DNA of 64,000 nucleotides from Amycolatopsis thermophila (GTDB taxonomy: Bacteria; Actinomycetota; Actinomycetes; Mycobacteriales; Pseudonocardiaceae): contig NZ_JAUSUT010000001.1 of the NCBI RefSeq assembly GCF_030814215.1, positions 1 to 64,000 of the forward strand, given 5' to 3'. This document shows positions 399 through 40,237 of the stretch, in pieces. The position numbers and the translations under genes are program-made. Under the pieces are notes generated by a model that was not told the origin of the DNA, made no database searches, and saw only the letters and a list, made by a program, of their open reading frames with translations. The first letter of the stretch is position 1. Every line of letters begins with the position of its first letter.

Positions 399-2444
399 TC
401 ATCGGCCCACCGTCACGACGAGGTTGCGCAGCTCGTCGACGACCGCGACGTCGCCGGGGAGCAGCAGCGTGGTGGTGTCCATCTGCTCGACCACCGCCGG
501 TCCCTCGATGCGGTGGCCGGGCCGCAGCAGCTTGCGGTCGTACACCGGGGTTGTGGTGAACCCGCCGCTTTCCGGCAGGTAGACCTCGCGGGTGGCGCGG
601 ATCGCGCCGCCGGCGTCGGCGTCGCCGCGTTCCGCGCGGTGCAGCTCGGCGCGGGCGACCTCACCGACGGCCCGCAGGCGGAAGGTGACCACCTGCACCT
701 CGTCCTCGGTGGCGGAATACCCGTACATCCGCTCGTGCTCGGCGGCGAACCGCTTGGTCAGCTGGCTGACGGTGTCGGCGGTGATCACGCCCTCGGGCAC
801 GGGGACCGGCAGCTCGTGGTTCTGGCCGGCGTAACGCATCTCGGCGAACCGTTCGGTGCGGCGGTGCTCGGCGGGCACGTTCTCCTCGGCCAGCCACGCC
901 GTCGCCGACGCCTCGAGCTCGGCGAACACCGCGGCCACCGCGGTCTCGTCGGGCGCCGTGATGCGGGTGCGCAGGAAGTCGGCGCGGATGTCGGTCATCA
1001 GCAGGCCGGCGGCGCACTGCGCGCCGGGCGTCTCCGGGACGAGCACCGTGCGCATGCCCAGCTCGCGGGCCAGGCGCACGGCGTGCAGCGGTCCGGCGCC
1101 GCCGAAGGGCACCAGGACGTAGTCGCGCGGGTCGTAGCCGCGCTGCACGGAGATGACCCGGATGGCGCGGGCCATGTTGGCGGTGATGACCCGGATGATC
1201 CCCTGCGCGGCGTCCAGGACGTCCATCCCCAGTGGATCGGCCACTGCGGACACCGCGGTGCGCGCGGCGGCGGCGTCGATCTTCATCCGGCCGTCCAGCA
1301 GGTACTCCGGGTTGAGCACCCGCAGCACGACGTTGGCGTCGGTGACGGTGGGTTCGGTGCCGCGGCCGTAGCAGGCCGGGCCGGGATCGGCGCCCGCGCT
1401 GCCGGGACCCACCTTGAGGGCGCCGCCCGCGTCGATCCACGCGATCGAACCACCGCCGGCGCCCACGGTGTGGATGTCCAGCATCGGCGCGCGCACCGGC
1501 CTGCCGTCGATCTCGGTGCCGTTGGCCGCCTTCGGGACGCCGTCCTGCACGAGCGAGACGTCCGAGGACGTGCCGCCGACGTCGAAGGTGATGATGTCCG
1601 GGAACCCGGCGGCGCGGGCGATCTCGGCCGCGCCCACGACACCGGTGCTCGGGCCGGACAGGACCATGCGCGAGGGCATCCGCTCGGCGGTTTCGAACGG
1701 GATGATGCCGCCGTTGGACTGGGTGACGTGCGGCGTCGCGCGCAGGCCCAGCTCGCTCAGGCGGCTCCGCAACCGCGCCAGGTAGCGGGCCACCACCGGG
1801 CCGAGGTAGGCGTTGACGACCACTGTGGACAGTCGCTCGTACTCGCGGAACTCGGGCAGCACGGCCGAGGACACCGAGATGTGCACGCCCGGCAGTTCCT
1901 CGGCGAGGATCCGCTCGGCCGCCCGCTCGTGCCCGGGATCGACGAAGCTGTAGAGGAAGCACACGGCGACGGCTTCCACGTTCTGCTCGCGCAGCCGCCG
2001 GGCCAGCGAACGGACCTGGTCCTCGTCGAGTGGGCGCTCGACCCGGCCGTCGTGGCGGACCCGCTCGTCCACCTCCAGCCGCAGGTCGCGGGAGACCAGC
2101 GGGGCGGGCTTGTCGGCCTGCAGGTCGTAGAGCGACGGGCGGCGGCCCCGGCCCAGTTCCAGCAGGTCGCGGAAGCCGGCGGTGGTGAGCAGGCCGGTGC
2201 GCGCGCCGCGCTCGGTGAGCAGTGCGTTGGTGCCGACCGTGGTGCCGTGGGCGAAGTAACCCACCTCGCCGAGGTCGCGTCCGCCGATCTCGTCGAGCAG
2301 CTGGGACACCCCCGCCACGATCGCCCGGCCGGGGTCGTCCGGCGTGCTGGACACCTTGCGCACGTACAGGCGCCCGGTCTGCTCGTCGAGGGCGCAGACG
2401 TCGGTGAACGTGCCACCGGTGTCGACGCCGATCCGAAGTGTCAT
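399..2444 (-). CDS. Hydantoinase A/oxoprolinase family protein (HyuA)
   Basis: A 681-residue ATPase subunit of the hydantoinase/5-oxoprolinase family, probably acting with HyuB on a cyclic amide or related carbonyl compound. The N-terminus reads MTLRIGVDTGGTFTDV, the phosphate-binding motif of the Hydant_A_N domain (about 1-180). The HyuA core (about 200-490) contains TFDVGGTSSDVSLV, the second ATPase-type motif, and GAGGGSIAW. A C-terminal hydantoinase A domain follows. Length fits the family. It is divergent from a LacI-type regulator across a 123-bp gap that holds two palindromes, so it is probably repressed by that regulator. N-methylhydantoinase, acetophenone carboxylase and oxoprolinase alternatives cannot be separated here. 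Confidence 0.93.
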   Translation of the reverse strand: MTLRIGVDTGGTFTDVCALDEQTGRLYVRKVSSTPDDPGRAIVAGVSQLLDEIGGRDLGEVGYFAHGTTVGTNALLTERGARTGLLTTAGFRDLLELGRGRRPSLYDLQADKPAPLVSRDLRLEVDERVRHDGRVERPLDEDQVRSLARRLREQNVEAVAVCFLYSFVDPGHERAAERILAEELPGVHISVSSAVLPEFREYERLSTVVVNAYLGPVVARYLARLRSRLSELGLRATPHVTQSNGGIIPFETAERMPSRMVLSGPSTGVVGAAEIARAAGFPDIITFDVGGTSSDVSLVQDGVPKAANGTEIDGRPVRAPMLDIHTVGAGGGSIAWIDAGGALKVGPGSAGADPGPACYGRGTEPTVTDANVVLRVLNPEYLLDGRMKIDAAAARTAVSAVADPLGMDVLDAAQGIIRVITANMARAIRVISVQRGYDPRDYVLVPFGGAGPLHAVRLARELGMRTVLVPETPGAQCAAGLLMTDIRADFLRTRITAPDETAVAAVFAELEASATAWLAEENVPAEHRRTERFAEMRYAGQNHELPVPVPEGVITADTVSQLTKRFAAEHERMYGYSATEDEVQVVTFRLRAVGEVARAELHRAERGDADAGGAIRATREVYLPESGGFTTTPVYDRKLLRPGHRIEGPAVVEQMDTTTLLLPGDVAVVDELRNLVVTVGR

Positions 2445-4574: not shown

Positions 4575-6143
4575 CTAGCCCCGGTCGCGGCCGTGGCCGT
4601 GCCCCCGGCCCGGGTGGTCGTCCTTGCCGTCCTGGCCGCCCTTGTCGTCGCCGCCCGGCTTCTGGTCGGCGACGGTCGGGGAGGGGGTGGGGGACGGCGG
4701 CGGGGGCGGCGGAGTGCTCGTGGTGCTGGACAGGACGGTGTCGCTGTCGATGAGCGGCGCCGGGGCGGCGTGGATGAGCCCGAGCCGGTGCGGTTCGGTC
4801 ACGACCCGGCCGTCGGCGAGGGTGTAGGCGATGGTCACGGTCACCGTGTTGTCCGCGACCACTTCGGGCGCCGCGGTCACCGTGAGTGCGGTGATGCCGG
4901 ACCAGTACGCGCGGTAGGCGTCCTGGCCCTGCGCCTGCATCCGGGGGCCGAGGTGGGTCCAGGCGTTGTCCGGCCGGTCCGGCAGCAGGGCGTAGTACTC
5001 GCTCACCGTCCGGGTCAGTGACGCCGCGTCCAGCGCCGCGGCGGGCGCGGGCGGCTGAGCCGGCGCCGGTTCGTCGGGCGTGAGCTGCGTGAACAGCACC
5101 ACGACCGCGATCAGCGCGACCGCCACGGCCGCCACCGGCAGCAGGAACCGCCGCCACGTCCGGGGCGCCTCCGCCACCGGTCGGTTGTCCAGGCGTGTCC
5201 CGGCCGGCGCGCCGGCCCCGACCGGGGTGACCGGCACCGTCGGGGAGGACGGCGTGACGACCGGCTGCGTGCGCGCACGCGCGGGGTTGAGCGCGCGCGG
5301 CGGCACCGGCTGCCCGTCGGCCACCGCCTGGAGAGCGGTGGTGACCTGCACGGTGCCGGGCCGCTGTGCGGGATCGGACCGCAGCATCGCCATCAGGACC
5401 GGGGCGAGCGGACCGGCCAGCTCCGGCGGTGCCACCTCACCCGCCGCCACCCGGTGCAGCAGCGCGATCGAGTTGTCGTCCTCGCCGAACGGCGGCACGC
5501 CCTCGACCGCCGCGTAGAGGGTCGCGCCGAGGGAGAACACGTCGGAGTCGGGCGCCGGTTCCCCTCCCCTGGCGATCTCGGGCGCCAGGTAGGCGGGCGT
5601 CCCGGCGACCACGCCGGCCTGGGTGAGGGCGACGTCGCCGGTCGCGCGGGAGATGCCGAAGTCGGCGATCTTGACAGTGCCGTCCTCGCCGACGAGCAGG
5701 TTCCCGGGTTTGACGTCGCGGTGCACGATGCCCGCGGCGTGCGCGGCGGCCAGTGCCGACGCGGCCTGCGCCCCGATCCGGGCGACGGCCGCGGGCTCGA
5801 GCGGCCCCTGCTCGGCGACGACCGCAGCGAGGCTGCGCGAGGGCAAGTACTCCATCACCAGCACGGGCAGGCCGTTGTGCTCGGCGACGTCGTGCACCGT
5901 CACCGCGTGCGGGTGCCGGAGCCGGGCCGCGATCCGCCCCTCGCGCATGATGCGTTCCCGCGCCTCGTCGCTGTGCGCGGGCCCGGGCCACAGCTGCTTG
6001 ACCGCGACCGGCCGTTCGAGCCGTTCGTCGAGCGCGAGCCAGACGACACCCATCGCCCCGGCGCCCAGCCGGCTGCGCAGCCGGTACCTCCCGGCGAGGA
6101 GCCCGCCGGCGCCGTCCACGGTCAGCCCGTCCGTAGTCGTCAC
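4575..6143 (-). CDS. Serine/threonine protein kinase (PknB-like, membrane-anchored)
   Basis: A 522-residue Hanks-type kinase. The domain spans about 16-275: glycine loop LGAGAMGVVWLA, invariant lysine in PVAVKQLW, catalytic loop HRDVKPGNLLV, DFGIS at the metal site and the APE region TPAYLAPEIARGG. A Pro/Thr/Val-rich juxtamembrane linker leads to one transmembrane helix (about 325-345, RRFLLPVAAVAVALIAVVVLF in the sequence). A roughly 150-residue outside segment resembles the NTF2-like tail of actinobacterial kinases and ends in a Pro/Gly/Lys/His-rich stretch. It is not in an obvious operon. The sensed signal and targets are unknown. Confidence 0.93.
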   Translation of the reverse strand: MTTTDGLTVDGAGGLLAGRYRLRSRLGAGAMGVVWLALDERLERPVAVKQLWPGPAHSDEARERIMREGRIAARLRHPHAVTVHDVAEHNGLPVLVMEYLPSRSLAAVVAEQGPLEPAAVARIGAQAASALAAAHAAGIVHRDVKPGNLLVGEDGTVKIADFGISRATGDVALTQAGVVAGTPAYLAPEIARGGEPAPDSDVFSLGATLYAAVEGVPPFGEDDNSIALLHRVAAGEVAPPELAGPLAPVLMAMLRSDPAQRPGTVQVTTALQAVADGQPVPPRALNPARARTQPVVTPSSPTVPVTPVGAGAPAGTRLDNRPVAEAPRTWRRFLLPVAAVAVALIAVVVLFTQLTPDEPAPAQPPAPAAALDAASLTRTVSEYYALLPDRPDNAWTHLGPRMQAQGQDAYRAYWSGITALTVTAAPEVVADNTVTVTIAYTLADGRVVTEPHRLGLIHAAPAPLIDSDTVLSSTTSTPPPPPPSPTPSPTVADQKPGGDDKGGQDGKDDHPGRGHGHGRDRG

Positions 6144-6152
6144 CCGGACAGG

Positions 6153-6740
6153 TTACGGATCCGACGGCTCCGGTACGAGAGCGGGCAGGCGCCACACCAT
6201 CAGCGCCGACCACACCAGGTGCGTCAGCAGCGGCGCCCGGACGCCCCCGCTGGCTTCGCGTTGCCACGCGAACAACGCGCCCATCACCGCCGATGCCGCC
6301 ACCAGCGCGGGGTTGCGGGTGGCGCCGGTGACGAGGACGTAGAGCGCGGTCGACCGGACGGGACCGACGGCCTCGTGGACGGCGCCGCGGAAGAAGACCT
6401 CCTCGGCCGCGCCGTTCGCCAGTGTGGTCAGCAGCACCGCGCCGCGGTTACCCGCCGTGGCATACCGAACGACTTTGCGTAAGGCCCGGCGCAGCGGCGG
6501 GACGCGGCGCGCGACCTCCACGCCCGTCCGGAACAGCGCGAACGCCCCGGCACCTGACGCCAGCGGGGCCAGGACCGGGCCGTGCGCGGACGGTCTGCAC
6601 CGGGCGAGACCACCGGCGAACCAGATGGCCGCGGTGGCCCCGGTCGCCGCGAAGAACGACGGCGATCCCGGCTCGCGCGACAGCGACCAGCCCAGCATCC
6701 CGGCGCCGGACGCGGCCGTCAGCCCCAGCGCCGGTGTCAC
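6153..6740 (-). CDS. CPBP family intramembrane metalloprotease
   Basis: A 195-residue membrane protein starting at GTG 6740, overlapping the stop of the upstream oxidoreductase in a GTGA junction. It has several hydrophobic helices and the CPBP (CAAX protease / Abi) signature: AAEEVFFRG in the middle, and LLTHLVWSALMV near the C-terminus giving the second conserved histidine. Family members are glutamate/histidine zinc proteases in the membrane, linked to prenyl-protein processing or bacteriocin immunity. Here it is coupled to a nucleotide-sugar-type reductase and the role is unknown. Confidence 0.85.
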   Translation of the reverse strand: MTPALGLTAASGAGMLGWSLSREPGSPSFFAATGATAAIWFAGGLARCRPSAHGPVLAPLASGAGAFALFRTGVEVARRVPPLRRALRKVVRYATAGNRGAVLLTTLANGAAEEVFFRGAVHEAVGPVRSTALYVLVTGATRNPALVAASAVMGALFAWQREASGGVRAPLLTHLVWSALMVWRLPALVPEPSDP

Positions 6741-7627
6741 CGCGGAACCCGTTCGGCCGCCCGCTCGCGCAGCGCGGCGACCACCGCGGCGTCGAACCCC
6801 ATCGGCTCGAACGGCACGACTTCGCGCAGGCTGTGGTCGCGCACCACGACCTCGTTGATCATCGAGCCGACGAGCGAGCGGCCGGTGGCGGCGTCGACGT
6901 CGGTCACCAGCGACAGCCACAGCGCCGACAACCGCGGTGACAGCAGCGGGACCGGCACGATCAGCCGGTGCCTGCCCTCGATGCCGGCGACGCGGCGCAG
7001 CATGTCGCCGTAGGCGAGGACGTCCCCACCACCGGCTTCGAACACCCGTCCCGGCGGCACGTCCAGCAGGGCGACCAGGTAGCGGACGACGTCGGCCAGC
7101 GCGATCGGCTGCGTCCGCGTGTGCACCCAGCGCGGGGTGACCATCGCCGGCAGGTGCTCCACGAGCTGCCGGGTGATCTCCCACGAGATCCCGCCGTGGC
7201 CGATGACGATCCCGGCGCGCAGCGCGGTGACCGGCACGCCCGCCTCCCCGAGCAGGCCTTCGACCTGGCGTCGGCTGCGCAGGTGGGGCGAGAGGTCGTC
7301 GGCGTCGTCGCCCAGCCCGCCGAGGTAGACGATCCGGGTCAGCCCGGCGCGGGCGGCGGCCCGGCCGAACGAGCGCGCGGCGTCGGCGTCGCGGCGCTCG
7401 AAGTCCGGCTCGCCCAGGGAGTGCACGAGGTAGTACGCCGCGTCGGCGCCGGCGAGGGCCTGGTCGAGGGACCCGGCGTCGTGCACGTCGCCGTGGACGG
7501 GTTCGCCCGCCCCGGCGTAGTCGTCCGGATGGCGCGTCATCGCGGCGACGTCGTGCCCGGCGCCGGTGAGCGCCGGGCACAGGCGCCGCCCGACGAACCC
7601 CGATGCCCCCGCTACCAGCACCCGCAT
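6737..7627 (-). CDS. NAD(P)-binding atypical SDR (NmrA/UDP-sugar epimerase-like)
   Basis: A 296-residue Rossmann protein. The start chosen is ATG 7627 because AGAGGAG lies 7 bp upstream. The N-terminus MRVLVAGASGFVGRRLCPAL carries the GxxGxxG dinucleotide motif of extended and atypical SDRs. The middle contains YLVHSLGEPDFERRD and RIVYLGGLGDD, as in the DUF2867-associated or YbjT-like NAD(P)H-binding proteins. No YxxxK is apparent, so it may be a non-catalytic or quinone-reductase-like member. Translationally coupled to the CPBP gene downstream. Confidence 0.82.
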   Translation of the reverse strand: MRVLVAGASGFVGRRLCPALTGAGHDVAAMTRHPDDYAGAGEPVHGDVHDAGSLDQALAGADAAYYLVHSLGEPDFERRDADAARSFGRAAARAGLTRIVYLGGLGDDADDLSPHLRSRRQVEGLLGEAGVPVTALRAGIVIGHGGISWEITRQLVEHLPAMVTPRWVHTRTQPIALADVVRYLVALLDVPPGRVFEAGGGDVLAYGDMLRRVAGIEGRHRLIVPVPLLSPRLSALWLSLVTDVDAATGRSLVGSMINEVVVRDHSLREVVPFEPMGFDAAVVAALRERAAERVPR

Positions 7628-7712
7628 GACGGCTCCTCTGAATCGATGCACGATCGAGGCATGGGATGACGGTAGTCGACGCGGGGCCGGTGTGCATCGT
7701 GGAGCTATCTTA

Positions 7713-7731
7713 GCGGTGATATTCTTACCGC
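7713..7731. promoter_or_regulatory. Imperfect 19-bp palindrome upstream of the MarR gene
   Basis: GCGGTgATATTcTtACCGC has arms GCGGT/ACCGC with further partial symmetry inside, 21 bp before the MarR-type start codon. The preceding bases add CTTA, which is also repeated within the site. MarR proteins usually bind 16-20 bp palindromes overlapping their own promoter, so this is a candidate autoregulatory operator. Confidence 0.5.
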
Positions 7732-7752
7732 AGAGATTTTCGAGGGGGTGGG

Positions 7753-8289
7753 ATGGCCAAGCGCGACAAGCCGCAGCCGGACGCGGTCGACCTGATGCTC
7801 GCCGAGTGGCGCCGCGAGACGCCGGAGATCGACGCCTCGCCGCTGGCGATCTTCGGCCGTCTGCACCGGGCGTTCGACGGGTACACGGTGCAGCTGAACC
7901 GGGTCTTCGGCCGGTACGGCATCAACATCTCCGCGTTCGGGATCCTGGCCGCGTTGCGGCGGGTGGGCGCGCCGTACCGGCGGACGGCGGGTGAGCTGGC
8001 GGACGCGAACCTGCTGACCACGGGCGGGATCACGCAGCGGGTCGACAAGCTGGCGGCCGCGGGGCTGGTCTACCGCGACCGCGACGCCGACGACCGCCGT
8101 ATCGTCTACATCGGACTGACCGAGGACGGCCTGGCGCTGACGGACAAGGTCGCCGAGGTGCATTTCGCGAACGAGAACCGGATGCTCGCGGGTCTGACGA
8201 AGACCGAGCGCACGCAGCTGGCGCAGCTGCTGAGCAGGCTCGAGCACTCGATCCGGCTGGCCGAGCTCGCCGATCGCGCCGAGTCGTAG
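7753..8289 (+). CDS. MarR family transcriptional regulator
   Basis: A 178-residue winged-helix regulator with a GAGGGGGTGGG ribosome site before ATG 7753. The DNA-binding part includes RRTAGELADANLLTTGGITQ (helix-turn-helix) followed by the wing DRDADDRRIVYIGLTEDGLA, the MarR hallmark D-x-R-D-x-R-x3-V-x-L-T-x-x-G. Flanking helices form the dimer interface. It lies upstream of the aldehyde dehydrogenase and the 10-20 kb catabolic operon. It is the nearest regulator able to act on the CTTAG-N2-CTAAG sites there, but that link is inferred. Such regulators usually respond to a phenolic or aromatic acid ligand. Confidence 0.93.
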   Translation: MAKRDKPQPDAVDLMLAEWRRETPEIDASPLAIFGRLHRAFDGYTVQLNRVFGRYGINISAFGILAALRRVGAPYRRTAGELADANLLTTGGITQRVDKLAAAGLVYRDRDADDRRIVYIGLTEDGLALTDKVAEVHFANENRMLAGLTKTERTQLAQLLSRLEHSIRLAELADRAES

Positions 8290-27586: not shown

Positions 27587-29527
27587 TCACAGCTGAACCC
27601 CGCCCCGCGGATCCGGGCCGCCGGCACGGGCCCGCTCCAGGCGCCGCGCGCGCTCGGCGGCGAACGCCCTGCCCAGGCCGAGCCGCTCGGCGGGGGACAC
27701 GGTGCGCCGCAGCTCGTTGAGCAGCCCCCGCTCCTCGCCGCGGATGTGCTCGTCCACGGCGTTCTCCAGGCGCAGCAACGCCTTCTCCCCCTCCGGCCCG
27801 GGCTCGGTGATCGCCCGGACGTCGGCGGAGACGTCCGGGCCGGGCTCGGACGGGTGGAGCACGCGCTCGGTCGCCGCGGCGTGCGCGGTCAGCAGCGCGG
27901 CCAGCTCGGCCGTCAGCAAATCCCGGTCCGCCTGCTCGTCCCGCAACCCGCGGAACAGCTCTTCGAGGCGGCGGTGGTCGGCCTGGACCAGTTCCGTCAC
28001 GTCCGATCCCGGCGTCGCGGCGGGGGCCGGGCGGGTCCAGCCGAAGGTCAGCGCCACCGCCTGCCGCCACTGCGCGTACTCCCGCTCGCGCCGCGCCAGG
28101 TCCATCTCGGGCAGCCACTGGGCCGCGCGGTGCCAGTTGCGCCGCAACCCCTCCAGGTCCGGCCAGTACCCCACCGACAGCCCCGCCGCGTAGGCAGCGC
28201 CCAGCGACACCGTCTCGGCGACCATGGGCCGGACCACCGGCACGTCGAGGACGTCGGCGACGAACTGCATGAGCAGGTTGTCCGCGGTCATCCCGCCGTC
28301 CACCCGCAGGGTCGACAGCGCGAGGCCGGAGTCGGCGTTCATCGCCTCGACCACCTCGCGGGTCTGCCAGCCGGTGGCCTCCAGCACGGCCCTGGCGAGG
28401 TGCCCCTTGGTGATGTAGGACGTCAGCCCCGCGATCACCCCGCGCGCCTCGCTGTGCCAGTGCGGGGCGAACAGGCCCGAGAAGGCGGGCACGATGTAGC
28501 ACCCGCCGTTGTCGGAGACCGTGCGCGCCAGCGTCTCGATCTCCGGCGCGCTGCTGATCAGCCCGAGCCCGTCGCGGAACCACTGCACCAGCGACCCGGT
28601 CACCGCGATCGAGCCCTCGAGCGCGTACACCGCGGGTTCGTCGCCGATCCGGAAGCCGACCGTGGTGAGCATGCCGTGGGTGGACAGCACCGGCGTGGTG
28701 CCGGTGTTGAGCAGCAGGAAGCTGCCGGTGCCGTAGGTGCACTTCGCCTCGCCCGGCGCGAAGCAGGTCTGGCCGAACAGCGCCGCCTGCTGGTCGCCGA
28801 GCGCGGCGGCGATGTCGATGCCCGGCACCACGCGGGAGGTCGTGCCGTACACCTCGGTCGAGGAGCGGATCTCGGGCAGCATCACGCGCGGCACGTCGAA
28901 GAACTCGAGCAGCTCGTCGTCCCAGGACAACGTGCGCAGGTTCATCAGCATCGTGCGGGAGGCGTTGGTGACGTCGGTGACGTGCACCCCGCCGTCGGGT
29001 CCGCCGGTGAGGTTCCAGATCAGCCAGGTCTCGATCGTGCCGAACAGCACCTCGCCGCGCTCGGCCCGCTCCCGCAGCCCCGGGGTGTGCTCCAGCTGCC
29101 AGCGCAGGCGCGGCGCGGAGAAGTACGTGGCCAGCGGCAGCCCGCACAACCGGCGGACCCGGTCCGCGCCCGGCTCGCGGGCCAGCTGGTCGACCATCCC
29201 GTCGGTGCGGGTGTCCTGCCAGACGATCGCGCGGCCGACCGGGACGCCGGTCCGGCGGTCCCACAGCACGGTCGTCTCGCGCTGGTTGGCGATGCCCAGA
29301 GCGGCGACCTGCCCGGCCTCGATCCCCGCGTCGGACAGCGCCTGCGGGACCACCCGGCCGAGGTTGCGCCAGATCTCGACGGCGTCGTGCTCGACCCAGC
29401 CCGGTCGCGGGAAGTGCTGCTGGTGCTCGCGCTGGGCCACCGAGACCAGGCGCCCACGGGCGTCGAACAGGATGCACCGGGTCGACGTCGTGCCCTGGTC
29501 GATCGCCATCACGTAGCGCTGCACCAT
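27587..29527 (-). CDS. Glycerol kinase fused to a C-terminal hemerythrin-like (HHE) domain
   Basis: A 646-residue protein in one uninterrupted frame; ATG 29527 follows GAGGAGG. Residues 1-497 are a complete FGGY glycerol kinase: [34 protein letters not shown] with catalytic D245, [23 protein letters not shown]. After a short Pro/Ala linker (498-508), residues 509-625 form a four-helix hemerythrin-like domain: DH518RRLEEL, TAH549AAATE554, DEH594IRGEE. Normal GlpK is about 500 residues and lacks this part. The HHE domain suggests a di-iron oxygen, redox or NO sensor controlling the kinase. A second, standard GlpK lies at 31296. The IclR gene ends 16 bp before its start. Confidence 0.88.
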
Positions 29528-29543
29528 GCGGGCGGCCTCCTCG

Positions 29544-30308
29544 TCACCGGGATGCGACGAGGTCGCGGGACACCGCCCGGGCCGCGTCGCGGACGTAGGC
29601 GAGCAGCCGCGGTTTCGGGCTCCCGCCGGGTTCGCAGATCCGGTCCTCCGCGCCGGACACGCCGATCGCCCCGACCACGATGCCACCGTGGCCGCGGATG
29701 GGCGCGGCGATCCCGGCCTCGCCGGGGACCAGTTCACCGCGCTCGCCGGCCCAGCCCGCCCGGCGGACCTCGGCGAGCGCGTGTTTGATCGCCGCCGGGG
29801 TGACCAGCGTCCGGCGCGTGTAGGACTCCGGCTCGCCGGAGCGCCACGACGCCGCCAGCGCCGCGTCGTAGGCCAGCAGGACCTTGCCCAGCGCGGTCGC
29901 GTGCGGCGGCAGCAGGGCGCCGACGTCGAGGGTCTGCGGGGTGTCGTCCGGGCGGAAGACGTGGTGCACGACCAGCACCCGCCCGTCCAGCGGCGCGCCG
30001 ATGCGCACCGTCTCCCCGCTGCGGGCCGCCAGCGCGTCGGCCCAGTTGATGGCCCGCGAGCGCAGCTCGTTCACGTCGAGGTAGCTGGTGCCCAGGTGCA
30101 GCAGCGCGGCGCCGAGCTGGTACTTGCCGGTGTCGCGGTCCTGCTCGACGAACCCGACGCCGGCCAGCGTGCGGAGGATGCCGTGCGCGGTGCCCTTCGC
30201 CAGCTCCAGCGACTCGGCGATCTCGGCCACCCCCAGCCGCCCGGAGCCGCGCGCCAGCAGCCGCAGCATCGCGGCGGCGCGCTCGATGGACTGGATGGGA
30301 CCCGGCAC
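29544..30308 (-). CDS. IclR family transcriptional regulator (GylR-like)
   Basis: A 254-residue IclR regulator. GTG 30308 ([18 protein letters not shown]) is the usual family start; an upstream start would read through the operator. Winged HTH at 8-70 ([20 protein letters not shown]), effector domain about 85-245 ending in [12 protein letters not shown]. Context (glpK fusion 16 bp downstream, glpF-glpK-glpD divergent) matches GylR, the glycerol-operon repressor of streptomycetes, which responds to glycerol-3-phosphate. A perfect palindrome lies 27 bp upstream of its start. Confidence 0.92.
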
Positions 30309-31277: not shown

Positions 31278-31295
31278 GTTCACGAAGGAGTGACC

Positions 31296-32807
31296 ATGCC
31301 CGATTTCGTCGGTGCCGTCGACCAGGGCACGACCAGCACCCGATTCATGATCTTCGACCACGGCGGCAACGAGATCGCCCGCCACCAGCTCGAGCACGAG
31401 CAGATCCTGCCCCGGCCGGGCTGGGTGGAGCACAACCCGACCGAGATCTGGGAGCGCACCCGCGCCGTGATCGCGAGCGCGCTGACCAAGGCGAACCTGA
31501 CGGCCGGCGATCTCGCCGCGCTGGGCATCACCAACCAGCGCGAGACCACCGTGGTGTGGAACCGCCGCACCGGCCGCCCCTACACGAACGCGATCGTGTG
31601 GCAGGACACCCGCACCGACCGGATCGCCTCCGCGCTCGAACGCGGCGGCCAGGGTGACGTCATCCGGCGCAAGGCGGGCCTCCCCCCGGCGACCTACTTC
31701 TCCGGCGGGAAGCTGCAGTGGATCCTGGAGAACGTCGACGGCGTCCGCGCCGACGCCGAGAACGGGGACGCGCTGTTCGGCACCACCGACAGCTGGCTCA
31801 TCTGGAACCTCACCGGCGGCACCGACGGCGGGGTGCACGTCACCGACGTCACCAACGCCTCCCGCACCATGCTGATGGACCTGGAGACGCTGGACTGGGA
31901 CGACGAGCTGCTGTCGTTCTTCGGCATCCCCCGGCGCATGCTGCCGGAGATCAAGTCGTCCTCGGTCCACTTCGGCACCACCCGCTCCGACGGCCCGCTC
32001 GGCGGCGAGATCGCGATCACCGGTGTGCTGGGCGACCAGCAGGCGGCCACCGTCGGCCAGGTGTGCTTCCGCCCCGGCTCGGCCAAGAACACCTACGGCA
32101 CGGGCAACTTCCTGCTGCTCAACACCGGGCACGAGCTGGTGCGCTCGAAGCACGGGCTGCTGACCACGCTGTGCTACCGCTTCGGCGACGACAAGCCGGT
32201 GTACGCGCTGGAGGGTTCGATCGCCGTCACCGGGTCGGCCGTGCAGTGGCTGCGCGACCAGCTGGGCATCATCAGCGGCGCGTCGCAGAGCGAGACGCTG
32301 GCCCGGCAGGTCGACGACAACGGCGGCATCTACTTCGTCCCCGCGTTCTCCGGCCTGTTCGCGCCGTACTGGCGTTCCGACGCGCGCGGCGCGATCGTCG
32401 GCCTGACCCGCGCCACCACCAACGCCCACCTGGCGCGGGCGACCCTGGAGTCGATCTGCTACCAGACGCGCGACGTCGTGGAGGCGATGCAGAACGACTC
32501 CGGCGTCCCGCTCGACGTGCTGCGCGTGGACGGCGGGGTCACCGCGAACGAGCTGTGCATGCAGCTGCAGGCGGACATCCTCGGCGTGCCGGTGTCCCGG
32601 CCGGTCGTCGCCGAGACCACCGCGCTCGGGGCCGCCTACGCGGCCGGGCTGGCCGTCGGGTTCTGGCGGTCGACCGACGAGCTGGAGCAGAACTGGAACG
32701 AGGACCGGCGCTGGGAGCCGTCGTGGAGCGACGCCCAGCGCGCCGAGGGGTACGCCGGCTGGCAGAAGGCCGTCGGACGCACCCTCGACTGGGTCGACGT
32801 CGAATAA
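31296..32807 (+). CDS. glpK: Glycerol kinase GlpK (standard)
   Basis: A 503-residue FGGY kinase forming glycerol-3-phosphate with ATP. ATG 31296 follows GAAGGAG. Motifs: [42 protein letters not shown] (catalytic Asp), [14 protein letters not shown] and [10 protein letters not shown]. It ends after WVDVE with no extra domain, unlike the paralogue at 27587-29527. The gene is 18 bp after glpF and 19 bp before glpD, in one operon. Confidence 0.96.
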
Positions 32808-34571: not shown

Positions 34572-37238
34572 TCAGCCGAGGTCGCCGCCCGCCACCGGCA
34601 GGACTGTGCCGGTGATGTAGGCGGCCTCGTCGGAGGCGAGGAACGTGATCGCGGCGGCCTGCTCGTCGAGCGTGCCGTAGCGCTTCATCAGCGACGAGTT
34701 CACCGTCTGGTCGATGTGGGCCTGGAACCAGGCCCGCTCCTGCTCGGTCTCCAGGGCCGAACCGCCGCGGCTGATCCGGCGCGGTGGCGCTTCGGTGCCA
34801 CCGGGTGCGGTCGCCACCACCCGGATTCCCGTGCCGGCGTATTCGAACGCCAGCGAGGCCGTGATGGCGTTGATCCCGCCCTTCGCCGCCGAGTACGGGA
34901 TGCGGTGGATCCCGCGGGTCGCGGCCGACGACACGTTCACGATCACCCCGTGCCCCCGCGCGGCCATCGACGGCAGCGCGGCGCGGCACGAGTACAGCGT
35001 CGTCATCAGCGACCGCCGGATCTCGGCGTCGATCTGCGCCGGCGTGAACTCGGTGAACGGCTTGAACCAGATCGCCCCGCCCACGTTGTTGACCAGCACG
35101 TCGATCCGGCCGTACCGGGCGATCGCCGCCTCGGTCACCGCCTGCGCGCCCTCCCACGTCTCCAGGTCGGCGAGCACCGGCAGGGCCTCGCCGGTCAGCT
35201 CGTCCGCCACACCGGTGACCAGGTCCGACCGGTCGGCCAGGACGACGGTGCCGCCCTCGGCGCTGATCCGGCGCGCGACCCGCTCGCCGATGCCCTGCGC
35301 GGCACCGGTCACCACCACGACCTTGCCGTCGAACCGGCCGGGGCTGAGGAACCTCGGCCGCCGGGCGGCCTTCGCGTCGTCCATCGCCCGGCGCATCGTG
35401 ATCTTCGACCGCTCGGCGTGCTCGGCGACCAGGCGGCGCGCGGTCTGCCGGTCGCCCGCCTCGAACGCGGCCACGATGTCCAGGTGGTCCTGGGTGCACC
35501 GGGGGTGGCACCAGGTGGCGTCGCGCAGCGTCTCCTCCATGTGCCCCTTCACGCCGAGCGCGCGGTAGGCCTGGAGCAGGTGCTCGTTGCCGGTCTGGGT
35601 GAACAGGTAGTCGTGGAACGCGGCGTTGGTCTCGGTGTACGCGGCGGCGTCGACGAACCGGTCACCGTCCACATAGGGCACGCATGCCTCGGCCAGCAGC
35701 CGGTACCCGGCGAGCTGCCGCGAGGTGAGCCGGCCGATCGTGATCTCCACCGCGCCGAGCTCAAGGGCCTGCCGCGCCTCGAACACGGCATCCGACTCGT
35801 GCACCGACGGGTGCTCCTCGCCGATCTCGTAGCACCCGGGCCCGGTGAGCGGGGCGATTTCGGCGGGCGGCAGCATCTCCTGGCCCGCGATGGAGCGGGC
35901 CGCCACGGGAGCCGCCGTGTCGCCCGGGTCGAGCGCCCCGCCGGTTCCACCGGGCCAGACGGCCTGACCGGCGATGGTGCGCTTGGTCTGTCCGTCGTCG
36001 GCGACCGGGCCCGTCCCGCGCAGCGGTTCGATTTCGGTGGCCGGGAAGACGGTCTGCCCGGCCACGGCCCGGCCCGCCCCCGCCGGTTCCGGCGAAGGGG
36101 ACGAAGCCGGATCGGCGGGGGCGGCCGGGACCTCCGGCGCGGCGGGCGCCGGGGCCAGGACAACCGGAGCCGGCTCGGGTTCCGGCGGGGCGTCGGGCTC
36201 GGGGGCGGCCTCCGTCTCCACCGCGGACGGCGCGGCGGAGAGCGCGAACTTCTCGTAGTAGAACCCCGCGGGCTCCACCCCGGCGTCGGCGAAGTGCTTG
36301 CGCACCGCCTCGACCATCGGGGGCGGGCCGCACAGGTACACGGCCACGTCGCCGCCGTGCAGGTGCTCGTCGCGGATCAGGGCGGTCACGTAGCCCTTGT
36401 TCGGCGCCGTGCTGTCCGGGTCGGCGACGCAGTAGTCCCAGGTCAGCCCCTCGACCTGGTCGGCCAGCCCGGCGAGGGTGTCCAGCTCGACCAGGTCGTC
36501 GTCGGTGGTGACGCCGTAGATCAGGTGCGCCGGGCGGGCCGACCCGCAGGCCCGCATCGCGCGCACGATCGACAGGATCGGAGCCAGCCCGGTCCCGCCG
36601 GCGAGCAGCAGCACGGGCCGGTCGGCCTCGCGCAGGAAGAAGCTGCCGTTCGGACCGGTGAACGTCAGCGCGTCCCCCGGCGCGGCGCGCCCGGTCAGGT
36701 AGTCCGACATCACGCCGCCCGGCGTGATCTTCACCAGGAACGTCAGCTGCTTGTCGTCCGGCGCGTTGCTGAACGAGTACGACCGCGTCTGCCCGGTGCC
36801 GGGCACCTCGATGTTGACGTACTGCCCGGGCAGGAACGCGAGCTTGTCCCGGTCCGGCGTTTCCACGGTCAGGGCGAACGTGGTCGGCGACAACCGGTCC
36901 AGCGCGGTGATCGTGCCGGTGTACGTCGCCGCCTGCGTCTTCGCCACCGCCGACGTGCTGGCGATCTGCAGCACCAGGTCGGAGCGGGGCTTCATGCTGC
37001 ACGGCAGGACGTACCCGCGCGCCGCCTCGTCGTCGGACAGGGCGTCGGAGATGTAGGTGCCGCCGTCGTACTCACCGGACTCGCAGAACGCCTTGCACGT
37101 CCCGCACGCACCGTCGCGGCAGTCCAGCGGGATGTTGATGCGCTGCCGGTACGACGCGTCGGCGACCGTCTGGTCCGGCTCGCACGTGATGAAGCGGGTG
37201 ACTCCGTCCTCGAAGGACAGTGCGACCTGGTGGGTCAT
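34572..37238 (-). CDS. benC: Fusion: benzoate dioxygenase reductase (BenC) + GntR-type FCD domain + cis-diol dehydrogenase (BenD)
   Basis: One 888-residue frame; ATG 37238 after GAGGAGG (GTG 37241 is too close). Residues 1-95: 2Fe-2S ferredoxin (C40, C45, C48, C80). 105-332: FAD/NAD reductase (RSYSFS 152, GGTGLAP 214, CGPPPM 303). 335-468: Pro/Ala-rich linker with three IAGQ-like repeats. About 480-612: FCD ligand-binding domain as in GntR regulators (FEARQALELGAVEI, AAFHDYLF with H542, ..CTQDHLDIVAAFEAGDR with H585, AEH607) but with no winged HTH. 635-888: SDR with TGAAQGIG 644-651, S770, Y782-x3-K786, matching BenD. It should pass electrons to BenAB and oxidise the benzoate cis-diol to catechol plus CO2. 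The FCD may sense an aromatic acid. Confidence 0.9.
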   Translation of the reverse strand: MTHQVALSFEDGVTRFITCEPDQTVADASYRQRINIPLDCRDGACGTCKAFCESGEYDGGTYISDALSDDEAARGYVLPCSMKPRSDLVLQIASTSAVAKTQAATYTGTITALDRLSPTTFALTVETPDRDKLAFLPGQYVNIEVPGTGQTRSYSFSNAPDDKQLTFLVKITPGGVMSDYLTGRAAPGDALTFTGPNGSFFLREADRPVLLLAGGTGLAPILSIVRAMRACGSARPAHLIYGVTTDDDLVELDTLAGLADQVEGLTWDYCVADPDSTAPNKGYVTALIRDEHLHGGDVAVYLCGPPPMVEAVRKHFADAGVEPAGFYYEKFALSAAPSAVETEAAPEPDAPPEPEPAPVVLAPAPAAPEVPAAPADPASSPSPEPAGAGRAVAGQTVFPATEIEPLRGTGPVADDGQTKRTIAGQAVWPGGTGGALDPGDTAAPVAARSIAGQEMLPPAEIAPLTGPGCYEIGEEHPSVHESDAVFEARQALELGAVEITIGRLTSRQLAGYRLLAEACVPYVDGDRFVDAAAYTETNAAFHDYLFTQTGNEHLLQAYRALGVKGHMEETLRDATWCHPRCTQDHLDIVAAFEAGDRQTARRLVAEHAERSKITMRRAMDDAKAARRPRFLSPGRFDGKVVVVTGAAQGIGERVARRISAEGGTVVLADRSDLVTGVADELTGEALPVLADLETWEGAQAVTEAAIARYGRIDVLVNNVGGAIWFKPFTEFTPAQIDAEIRRSLMTTLYSCRAALPSMAARGHGVIVNVSSAATRGIHRIPYSAAKGGINAITASLAFEYAGTGIRVVATAPGGTEAPPRRISRGGSALETEQERAWFQAHIDQTVNSSLMKRYGTLDEQAAAITFLASDEAAYITGTVLPVAGGDLG

Positions 37239-37247
37239 CACGCCTCC

Positions 37248-37760
37248 TCAGATGTGGTAGACGTCGACGACGTGGTGGATGTAGTCGTTCTTCAGGATCA
37301 CGGTCTTGCGGCGGATCAGGGGTGACTCGCCGGAGAAGTCGATCGTGTAGAACGACGTCCCGTAGTACGGGTCGACCGTCTTGTACCGGAAGTACATGGT
37401 GTGCCAGTTGAACCGCACGTCCACGATGTCGCCGCGCCGCTCGATCAGCTCGACGTTGGTGATGTTGTGGCTGGTGCGCGGTTCCGGGATCGACGTGGCG
37501 CTGGAGCGCTCGGTGCGGATCCGGAACACCCGGTCCTCCAGCCCGCCCTTGTTCGGGTAGTAGATGAGCGAGATCTGGCTCTGCGGGTCCTCGGTCAGCA
37601 GGTCGTCGTCGCCCCAGGAGGGCATCCAGAAGACGACGTCGTCGGCGTAGCAGTCCAGCCACCGCTCGAACTCGCGGTCGTCGAGGTAGCGCGCCTCGCG
37701 GTAGAGGAACTGCTCGATGTCGGTCTGGGTGATGGTCTTCGTGCCCGTGGTGACGCTCAC
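37248..37760 (-). CDS. benB: Benzoate 1,2-dioxygenase, small subunit BenB
   Basis: A 170-residue beta subunit of a ring-hydroxylating dioxygenase (NTF2-like fold). GTG 37760 overlaps the benA stop (GTGA). Family features: [44 protein letters not shown], and [10 protein letters not shown] at the end. It is structural in the alpha3beta3 oxygenase. The fused BenC-FCD-BenD gene begins 9 bp after its stop. Confidence 0.95.
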
Positions 37761-39106
37761 TTGTCCGCTCCGATCGCCTTGAGCAGGGTCTCCCGCCAGT
37801 AGCCGTGCTGCACCGGGTACAGCCCCTCGTCCTCGTTCTTCCGCCCCGCCGAGATGACGCCCTTCATGTCCAGGGCCTCGGCGACCTCGTCCGGCCCGGT
37901 CACCCAGTGCTCGGCGCCGCGGCTCATGTCGTTCCATGGTGCGGCGGTGGCGCGGAAGGTCAGCTGGCAGGAGCGGAACTCCTCCAGGTCGTCCGGGGTG
38001 GCCATGCCGGAGGCGTTGAAGAAGTCCTCGTACTGCCGGATCCGCCAGGCGCGCGCGTCCGCGCTCTCCCCCTTGGGCGCGATGCAGTAGATCGTCACCT
38101 CGGTCTTGTCCGGCGCGATCGGCCGGAAGTGCCGGATCTGCGTGGAGAACTGGTCCATCAGGTACACGTTGGGATACAGGCACAGGTTGCGGGACCCCTT
38201 GACCATGAACTCGCCCTTGGCGTCGCCGTACCGCTCCTTCAGCTCGTCCATCCGGTTCCACAGTGGACGATCCTGCGGGTTGCCCGCCCACGTCCACAGG
38301 CACAGGTGGCCGTGCGGGAAGGACCAGTAGCCACCGCCGGACTTGCCCCAGCTGCCGGCGTCGAGCGTCTTGGTGTCGTTCGTGGACTCACCGGTGTTGC
38401 GGCGCGCGGTGGTGGCCGCGTAGTTCCAGTGCGTCGCGGTCACGTGGTAGCCGTCGGCACCGTTCTCCGCCTGCACCTTCCAGTTCCCGTCGTAGGTGTA
38501 GGTGGACGCGCCGCGCAGCACCTCCAGCCCCTCCGGGGACTGGTCGACGAGCATGTCGATGATCTTCGTGGTGTCGCCCAGGTGCTCGGTCAGCGGCAGC
38601 ACGTCGGCGTTGAGGCTGCCGAACAGGAAGCCGCGGTAGCTGTCGAAGCGCGCGACCCTGGTCATGTCGTGCGAGCCGCCGGTGTTGAACGACTCCGGGT
38701 AGCCGGCGCCGTCGGGGTCCTTGACCTTGAGCAGCGTGCCGTCGTTGCGGAACGTCCAGCCGTGGAAGGGACACGTCAGCGTCATCCGGTTGTCGGTCTT
38801 GCGGCGGCAGACCATCGCGCCGCGGTGCGCGCACGCGTTGATCAGGCAGTGCAGCTCCCCGTCGCGGTCGCGCGTGATGACCACCGGCTGACGGCCGATG
38901 TAGGTGGTGAAGTAGTCCCCCGGGTTCGGCAGCTGGCTCTCGTGGGCGAGGTAGATCCAGTTGCCCTCGAAGATGTGCTTCATCTCGAGTTCGAAGATCT
39001 CCTCGTCGGTGAAGATCCGGCGGTTGGCCCGGTAGATCCCGGCGTCGCGGTCCTCGATGACGGCGTCGGCGAGGACGGCCGACAGGTGGTCCAGGGTCTC
39101 GGTCAT
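37757..39106 (-). CDS. benA: Benzoate 1,2-dioxygenase, large subunit BenA
   Basis: A 449-residue alpha subunit. Rieske centre C92-A-H94 and C112-x2-H115 (CAHRGA, CPFHG). Mononuclear iron H221 and H226 with D218 in [14 protein letters not shown]. Length and sequence fit BenA/XylX; it dihydroxylates benzoate to the 1,2-cis-diol. ATG 39106 follows a GGGAG site. First gene of the benAB-CD operon, divergent from a LysR regulator with a clear LysR box in the promoter. Confidence 0.95.
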
Positions 39107-39328: not shown

Positions 39329-40237
39329 ATGGAGCTGCGTCACCTGCGGTACTTCACCGCGGTGGCCGACACCTGCCACTTCGGGAAGGCGGCCGAGCGC
39401 CTGCACATGGCGCAGCCCGCCCTGTCGCACGCGATCCGGCAGCTGGAGGCCGAGCTGGGCGCGCCGCTGTTCACCCGCACCACGCGGCAGGTCCGGCTCA
39501 CCCCGGCGGGTGAGTTCCTGCTGGGTGAGGCGCAGCGGGTGCTGGACGCGGTCGAGGACAGCGTCCGCGGGGTGCGCCGCATCGCCGACGGCCGTCTCGG
39601 CCTGGTACGGGTGGGGTTCACCGGCACCTCGGCGTTCTCGCACCTGCCGCGCATCGCCCGTGCGGTGAAGGCGACCCTGCCCGGGGTCGCCGTCGAGGTC
39701 CACGCGGACCTGCTCACGCCCGCCCAGTGCGACGGCCTGCGCGACGGCGACCTGGACCTGGGCGTGCTGCGCCCGCCGGCCCGCGGCGACGACATCCACC
39801 TGCACACCCTCGAGGCCGAGCCGCTGATCCTCGCCGTCCCCGCCGACCACCGCCTGGCGGTCGAGCCGGTGGTGTCGATGGCGGACCTGCGCACCGAGGG
39901 GTTCATCACCTACGCCAGCAAGGACTCCGTCGTCAACGACGCCGTCCTGCGCAGCTGCCAGGCCGCCGGGTTCAGCCCGCACCGCGAGCACGAGGCGGCC
40001 GGCACCGCCGTGCTGCTCGCGCTGGTCGCCGGTGGTCTCGGCATCGCGGTGCTGCCCGCGTCGGCGCGCGCTCTGCCGCTGGCCGGGGTCGTGTTCCGCG
40101 ACCTCGCCGACGCCGGCACCGTCGAACTCGCCCTGGCCTGGCGCCACGACAACGACTCCCCGCTCGTCCGGTCGGTGCTCGAGGTCCTCGAGGCCGCACT
40201 CGCCCCGCAAGCACACGTACCCGAGGTCAGCCGATGA
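39329..40237 (+). CDS. LysR family regulator (CatR/BenM-like)
   Basis: A 302-residue LTTR. ATG 39329 after AAGGAGG. N-terminal HTH MELRHLRYFTAVADTCHFGK then AAERLHMAQPALSHAIRQLE; effector domain about 90-295 with VRVGFTGTSAFSHLPRI. BenM/CatM/CatR relatives bind cis,cis-muconate and, for BenM, benzoate. Divergent from benA and translationally overlapping catB (ATGA), so it most likely activates both the ben and cat genes. Confidence 0.93.
   Translation: MELRHLRYFTAVADTCHFGKAAERLHMAQPALSHAIRQLEAELGAPLFTRTTRQVRLTPAGEFLLGEAQRVLDAVEDSVRGVRRIADGRLGLVRVGFTGTSAFSHLPRIARAVKATLPGVAVEVHADLLTPAQCDGLRDGDLDLGVLRPPARGDDIHLHTLEAEPLILAVPADHRLAVEPVVSMADLRTEGFITYASKDSVVNDAVLRSCQAAGFSPHREHEAAGTAVLLALVAGGLGIAVLPASARALPLAGVVFRDLADAGTVELALAWRHDNDSPLVRSVLEVLEAALAPQAHVPEVSR

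Follow-up and report, generated by a model that had tools for sequence, protein, structure and literature searches.

What would the ligand-binding domain of a transcriptional regulator do inside an enzyme, lodged between an oxygenase reductase and a dehydrogenase? The question is raised by one gene of the window (the whole stretch of 64,000 nucleotides of Amycolatopsis thermophila that was analysed), in which BenC, an FCD domain and BenD follow one another in a single polypeptide. The reading that we tentatively favour, at a little under an even chance, is that a regulator's ligand-binding domain was captured by the reductase, where it would respond to a carboxylate by adjusting electron delivery, and that the fusion to BenD came later.

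One frame for a reductase, an FCD domain and a dehydrogenase

The gene and its surroundings are laid out as follows.

34572..37238, minus strand: whole gene, BenC-linker-FCD-BenD, 888 aa plus stop (open reading frame, Pfam, NCBIfam)
36243..37232, minus strand: BenC reductase, residues 3-332, with [2Fe-2S], FAD and NAD domains (NF040810)
35808..36233, minus strand: linker, residues 336-477, Pro/Ala-rich and predicted to be mostly disordered (pLDDT, dN/dS)
35412..35786, minus strand: FCD domain, residues 485-609, with N538, H542, H585 and H607 (PF07729, fold)
34575..35336, minus strand: BenD short-chain dehydrogenase, residues 635-888 (NF040811)
37248..37751, minus strand: benB, ring-hydroxylating beta subunit, directly upstream of the fused gene (Ring_hydroxyl_B, 157.5 bits; start chosen by us)
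37757..39106, minus strand: benA, Rieske alpha subunit (Pfam Rieske and Ring_hydroxyl_A; start chosen by us)
39329..40237, plus strand: divergent LysR-type regulator (Pfam LysR_substrate and HTH_1)

The gene order is thus benA, benB and then the fused gene; beyond them lie the LysR gene, which is a candidate for the transcriptional control of the ben cluster, a muconate-lactonizing-type enzyme and a catechol-type dioxygenase. Elsewhere in the window, a glycerol kinase frame with FGGY_N and FGGY_C (Pfam; 27587-29737, minus strand) has a C-terminal stretch that is weakly hemerythrin-like (21.4 bits against a cut-off of 25.3), and a second glycerol kinase is found at 31290-32807 on the plus strand.

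As the original prediction had it, the fused gene is one uninterrupted open reading frame, of 888 codons plus a stop. AGGAGG lies 4 bases 5' of its start ATG. The species genomes were scanned with the full protein as query and the best 80 of 207 confirmed places were kept. BenC, linker/FCD and BenD share one stop-free frame in all 80 of these best 80 of 207 loci, which rules out a frameshift or a sequencing artefact; since the query was the full protein, this sample leans toward the full architecture. At one locus (L123, genome G240) the fused frame measures 1394 codons from stop to stop, which leaves room for about 500 residues ahead of BenC.

The reductase part is made of Fer2, FAD_binding_6 and NAD_binding_1 (Pfam) and reaches 488.9 bits against the BenC equivalog NF040810 (cut-off 430), and the dehydrogenase part reaches 416.1 bits against the BenD equivalog NF040811 (cut-off 380). 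Both enzymes look intact, because C40, C45, C48 and C80 of BenC, which we take to be the iron-sulfur ligands, and Y782 and K786 of BenD, presumably the SDR active site, are unchanged across a 48-row alignment. A separate BenD might also be produced from an internal start, for which the candidate is an ATG found 14 codons 5' of PGRF in 68 of the 79 loci with the PGRF pattern; this ATG falls inside the last FCD helix, and no strong ribosome site is seen at it in the window.

Between the two enzymes, residues 485-609 match FCD (PF07729) at 56.7 bits against a cut-off of 24.3, where the domain had been placed at about 480-612. It has the all-helical FCD fold, with likeness to the GntR-type regulators 3c7j, McbR (4p9f), TM0439, DhdR and VanR Atu1419; the score and the fold matches together rule out a chance match. 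Ahead of the domain the winged helix is indeed missing, as had been claimed: no helix-turn-helix family, PF00392 included, appears in the 888-aa protein among Pfam matches to E 1. The His-rich site that had been read from the sequence is likewise confirmed. It takes the (D/N)-H-H-H form as N538/H542/H585/H607, residues that we assume to bind a metal, and the N-H-H-H quartet is kept in 80/80 fused loci (best 80 of 207). A CHPxC before H585 was considered as an extra metal site and set aside: both cysteines occur in 74/80 loci (best 80 of 207), and the motif is absent from a BenC-FCD protein without fused BenD (L116). Over five pairs, dN/dS is 0.10-0.19 for FCD, 0.18-0.20 for BenC and 0.47-0.56 for the linker, and the constraint on FCD is thus about that on BenC.

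The whole-protein structure model has a pTM of 0.49 and therefore tells nothing about domain packing. In the predicted layout, about 145 mostly disordered residues separate BenC from FCD (pLDDT is mostly below 50 over residues 332-477), and FCD abuts BenD.

Reductases that carry the FCD domain

How widely BenC homologues carry FCD, with or without BenD, had been raised with the original prediction, and both forms are found. In a class sample of 394 genomes, the window's included, BenC exceeds the family cut-off in 13: 11 are fused, one is a BenC-FCD with a separate BenD (L116) and one is without FCD (L124), and the next below the cut-off (L125) has no FCD match. An FCD profile (A3) gives the window 287.7 bits in its own genome, the next FCD reaching 42.8 among 38 FCD matches. 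At E 1e-14 this profile finds 16 of the 394 class genomes (11 fused, one BenC-FCD, three flavin reductase-FCD and one stand-alone) and 9 of 396 in a phylum sample that overlaps the first in genomes (three fused, one BenC-FCD, three flavin reductase-FCD and two plain GntR). One actinobacterial family of 197 genomes was searched with A3 because a member (G002) already showed BenC-FCD. There, 26 genomes match, 24 of them with BenC-FCD frames of 515-787 aa stop to stop, and BenD lies nearby in a separate frame in 24/24 of these loci; of the other two genomes, one has two flavin reductase-FCD frames and one an ordinary GntR at 60 bits.

A linker-FCD query also matched five Paraburkholderia plasmid records. 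Two of the five proteins were read, each 929 aa long: a BenC-type reductase is followed by FCD and then by a P450 that has the customary Cys motif. Pfam gives 61.9 bits for FCD and 74.4 bits for p450 in one of them.

5068-7857, plus strand: Paraburkholderia plasmid BenC-FCD-P450, L142 (sequence read)
4984-7773, plus strand: Paraburkholderia plasmid BenC-FCD-P450, L143 (sequence read)

The one annotated Paraburkholderia record shows no benA or benB beside the gene, and the protein is possibly a self-sufficient P450 with a sensor domain. Across these sequences FCD goes with the reductase and not with BenD, in three C-terminal contexts: none, BenD and P450. That FCD is a part of BenD is ruled out, as it occurs without fused BenD (the 24/24 family loci) and with P450. 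Four further BenC-like frames (L126-L129, 843-921 aa in the available stretches) were tried as FCD fusions and rejected for lack of a match to the window FCD or BenD. They are AntC-like reductases in one long frame with an added C-terminal part; in L126, the one put through Pfam, Fer2/FAD/NAD is followed by a C-terminal FAD-dependent oxidoreductase part.

The second kind of carrier is a flavin reductase, to which most of the nearest other FCDs that were found belong, in eight proteins (L169, L171, L185-L187 and L196-L198, of which L187 and L197 are classed by sequence likeness). Six of the eight were put through Pfam (regions L172, L173, L192, L193, L201 and L203), which places flavin reductase and FCD over cut-off in 6/6, and the GntR helix over cut-off in three, below it in two and absent in L203. 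A related stand-alone gene accompanies one flavin reductase gene.

1465-1956, plus strand: L188, FCD gene of 164 aa that stands alone, has no helix-turn-helix and follows directly on a flavin reductase gene (852-1391)

Four of the eight flavin-reductase FCDs (L171 and L185-L187), and L188 as well, have a broken site, so metal sensing is not general; the site is intact in L169 and, judged by eye, in L196-L198.

A gene of flavin-monooxygenase type adjoins the reductase in seven of nine flavin-reductase clusters: StyA-type at L173, luciferase-like at L192, L193, L194 (tblastn only) and L195, and HpaB at L201 and L202. L172 has an acyl-CoA-dehydrogenase-like candidate 4.6 kb off and a ring-cleavage-type dioxygenase, and no monooxygenase was recognised near L203 with five queries and a reading of the starts of the longer open frames. 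The luciferase-like family also holds F420-dependent dehydrogenases and reductases, which are not oxygenases, and for this reason four of the seven neighbours are putative oxygenases.

The FCD tree has 62 rows. One of its clades (97/92) unites 29 reductase-linked FCDs with two ordinary GntR regulators (L199, L200) and contains the BenC-type (20 rows, 97/92) and the fused proteins (10 rows, 100/98); these bootstrap values are not fully settled. The fused BenC-FCD-BenD proteins are a well-supported group within the BenC-FCD types. A clade of reductase-linked FCDs alone is neither demonstrated nor rejected (p-AU 0.294). Within the BenC tree, L124 (genome G345), which lacks FCD, is nested in the fused clade (100/100) and pairs with L025 (94/97). 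L124 has neither FCD nor BenD fusion; benC and benD are kept, BenD in another frame, and the end of its BenC holds one copy, IAGQLVF, of the linker motif described below. Because L124 sits inside the fused clade, loss of FCD and fission of BenD is the simplest reading, and the locus is a natural deletion of FCD. From the trees and the architectures we infer the order regulator, then reductase-borne FCD, then BenD fusion.

Possible roles of the FCD domain

According to the reading that we favour, FCD would derive from a GntR-type regulator, as its ligand-binding half, and would have been captured by the reductase that supplies an oxygenase system with electrons. A metal in the N538/H542/H585/H607 site would bind a carboxylate of the pathway, possibly benzoate, its cis-diol or muconate, and binding would alter the position or the activity of BenC, perhaps its reduction or its docking. 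NADH would then be spent mainly with substrate present. In the actinobacterial branch FCD would also have come to serve as a joint with BenD, and there the complex may be kept close to BenAB by the flexible linker and its AGQ repeats. Ligand and gating are proposed by analogy with AbHpaC, a reductase compared below; given this analogy, and given that two FCD-bearing flavin reductases adjoin HpaB genes, the FCD of BenC may bind a pathway carboxylate. The reductase-borne FCD in three contexts, its kin on flavin reductases, the site kept in 80/80 loci (best 80 of 207) and the low dN/dS would all be consistent with sensing. Against it stand the broken sites in the flavin-reductase kin, the disordered linker of about 145 residues, the loss of FCD in L124 and the two plain GntR regulators inside the clade, to which one can add that sensing at the level of DNA is already available through the LysR gene. 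The sensor gating electron flow that had originally been proposed thus gains a comparative basis, since FCD of this type is carried by the reductases of several oxygenase settings, some with BenD and some without it; its allostery and its ligand stay conjectural.

The main rival, which we consider rather unlikely, is that FCD is only a folding or oligomer interface that holds together reductase, dehydrogenase and perhaps BenAB and passes on the cis-diol, with no ligand role. The linker bears directly on it, through a repeated motif of consensus R-x-[IVL]-A-G-Q-x-[LVIM]-[FLW]-P, present three times in the linker of the window protein (motif matches).

36042..36071, minus strand: linker motif copy 1, RAVAGQTVFP, residues 390-399
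35952..35981, minus strand: linker motif copy 2, RTIAGQAVWP, residues 420-429
35868..35897, minus strand: linker motif copy 3, RSIAGQEMLP, residues 448-457

Counted over 76 of the 80 fused loci (best 80 of 207; the four without anchor were dropped), the linkers hold 195 copies, with none in one linker, one in 8, two in 17, three in 47 and four in 3. Two to four copies are therefore found in 67/76 linkers, against a maximum of two in 1520 shuffled controls (none in 1387, one in 131, two in 2). The stretch that separates the NAD domain from FCD measures about 170 residues in the window protein, 70 residues in L116 and 38 residues in the P450 fusion, and no AGQ motif was seen in the linkers of the latter two when their sequences were read. 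A scan of the collected loci gave two matches outside fused linkers, namely the L124 BenC tail and one in L140, which we take for chance. We think that the motif is a docking motif, perhaps for BenAB, and the linker does look like a docking tether, one copy of which L124 retains despite having lost FCD. The predicted position of FCD, abutting BenD and preceded by a long flexible linker, would also suit an interface, as does the title 'dimerization domain' of the PdhR FCD part (5tpm). However, BenC-FCD occurs with a separate BenD and with P450, so the origin of FCD does not lie in joining BenC to BenD, and a mere interface leaves the invariant quartet unexplained. For the same reason, channelling of the cis-diol, a role also suggested in the original prediction, cannot explain why FCD joined BenC; it may apply to the fused branch, where FCD is predicted to abut BenD.

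That FCD stems from a single fusion of a regulator gene and has stayed on as an insert that is neutral or does no more than stabilise is improbable: one lineage (L124) did lose FCD and keep the pathway genes, but the dN/dS of FCD is near or below that of BenC and well apart from that of the linker, and the domain is retained in three architectures. More improbable still is that FCD senses metal or iron status, and not an aromatic acid, to adjust electron flow into the iron-dependent dioxygenase, given that none of our results suggests metal as the signal and that the metal of FCD regulators usually helps to bind an organic acid, even if the conserved four-residue site and the Zn-bound FCD of TM0439 (3sxk) among the structure matches would fit. 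The ben genes of Rhodococcus also rise with Fe3+, a transcript effect (PMC11858498, in the part of the text available).

Returning to the sensing reading in its broadest form, we find it plausible, somewhat short of an even chance, that a branch of FCD domains was repeatedly taken from GntR regulators as an allosteric gate on the reductases of unrelated oxygenases, linking NADH use to substrate for a Rieske dioxygenase, a cytochrome P450 and HpaB-, luciferase- and StyA-type monooxygenases, with BenC-FCD-BenD as its most elaborate form. Oxygenases whose reductases turn over in the absence of substrate squander NADH and produce reactive oxygen, and FCD may tune the timing of electron supply to such oxygen-using enzymes. 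AbHpaC is the one regulator-derived reductase gate known in detail; if FCD acts likewise on several unrelated reductases, this would be a general route from gene regulator to enzyme regulator, and self-sufficient oxygenases could be equipped with existing sensor parts. The proposal can be tested directly on the forms described here: a flavin reductase joined to an entire GntR-like regulator, BenC-FCD, BenC-FCD-BenD, BenC-FCD-P450 and one secondary loss.

Comparison with known systems

The bare fact of the fusion is not new, since a BenC-BenD fusion with FCD was stated in 2019 for the ben operon of Gordonia alkanivorans YC-RL2 (PMC6362181); that report concerns one genome, and the portion of its text available to us holds no survey, kinship, site conservation or mechanism. 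Neither this publication nor the linker repeat had entered the original prediction. In Rhodococcus sp. TG-1 the benC product is named 'FCD domain-containing protein', with benD listed as a separate gene and the domain passing without comment in the accessible text (PMC11858498). In Rhodococcus ruber Chol-4 benC is named reductase component/diol dehydrogenase, a name that suggests a fusion, although a benD is also listed and FCD is not mentioned in the excerpt seen (PMC6498646). The annotated benABC and diol dehydrogenase genes of the proteobacterial pWW53, Rhizobium sp. SL42 and Roseomonas mucosa have the same gene order, but BenD is a separate gene and their BenC proteins, of only 336, 341 and 347 aa, cannot accommodate an FCD. 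The GntR-type FCD regulators named above share the fold and the (D/N)-H-H-H site; unlike them, the window FCD has no winged helix and is fused between two enzymes.

The closest functional parallel is the 4-HPA 3-hydroxylase reductase AbHpaC of A. baumannii, also an oxygenase-system reductase with a regulator-derived C-terminal domain, which in this case senses the substrate: a MarR-type domain binds 4-HPA, upon which self-inhibition is lifted and flavin reduction rises 30-fold or more, a control that the review, as far as its text was available, calls uncommon except for AbHpaC (PMC10816480). AbHpaC differs from the window protein in that its domain is MarR-type and not FCD, that it is a flavin reductase releasing reduced flavin and not a ferredoxin-type reductase, and that it has no BenD. 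Conversely, Pfam finds no flavin reductase domain (PF01613) in the window protein, and Pfam and fold find no MarR-type C-terminal domain, the domain present being FCD. The two FCD-bearing flavin reductases beside HpaB genes thus neighbour the kind of oxygenase that AbHpaC serves. In the open-licence literature we found no statement that FCD goes with the reductase and not with BenD and recognised nothing of the wider reductase-FCD pattern, and the word 'GntR' is absent from the main text of a review of two-component FAD monooxygenases (PMC6165268). The known kind, then, is the reductase with a regulator-derived sensor domain, and the wider reductase-FCD pattern is a variant of it that our searches of open-licence papers did not bring up.
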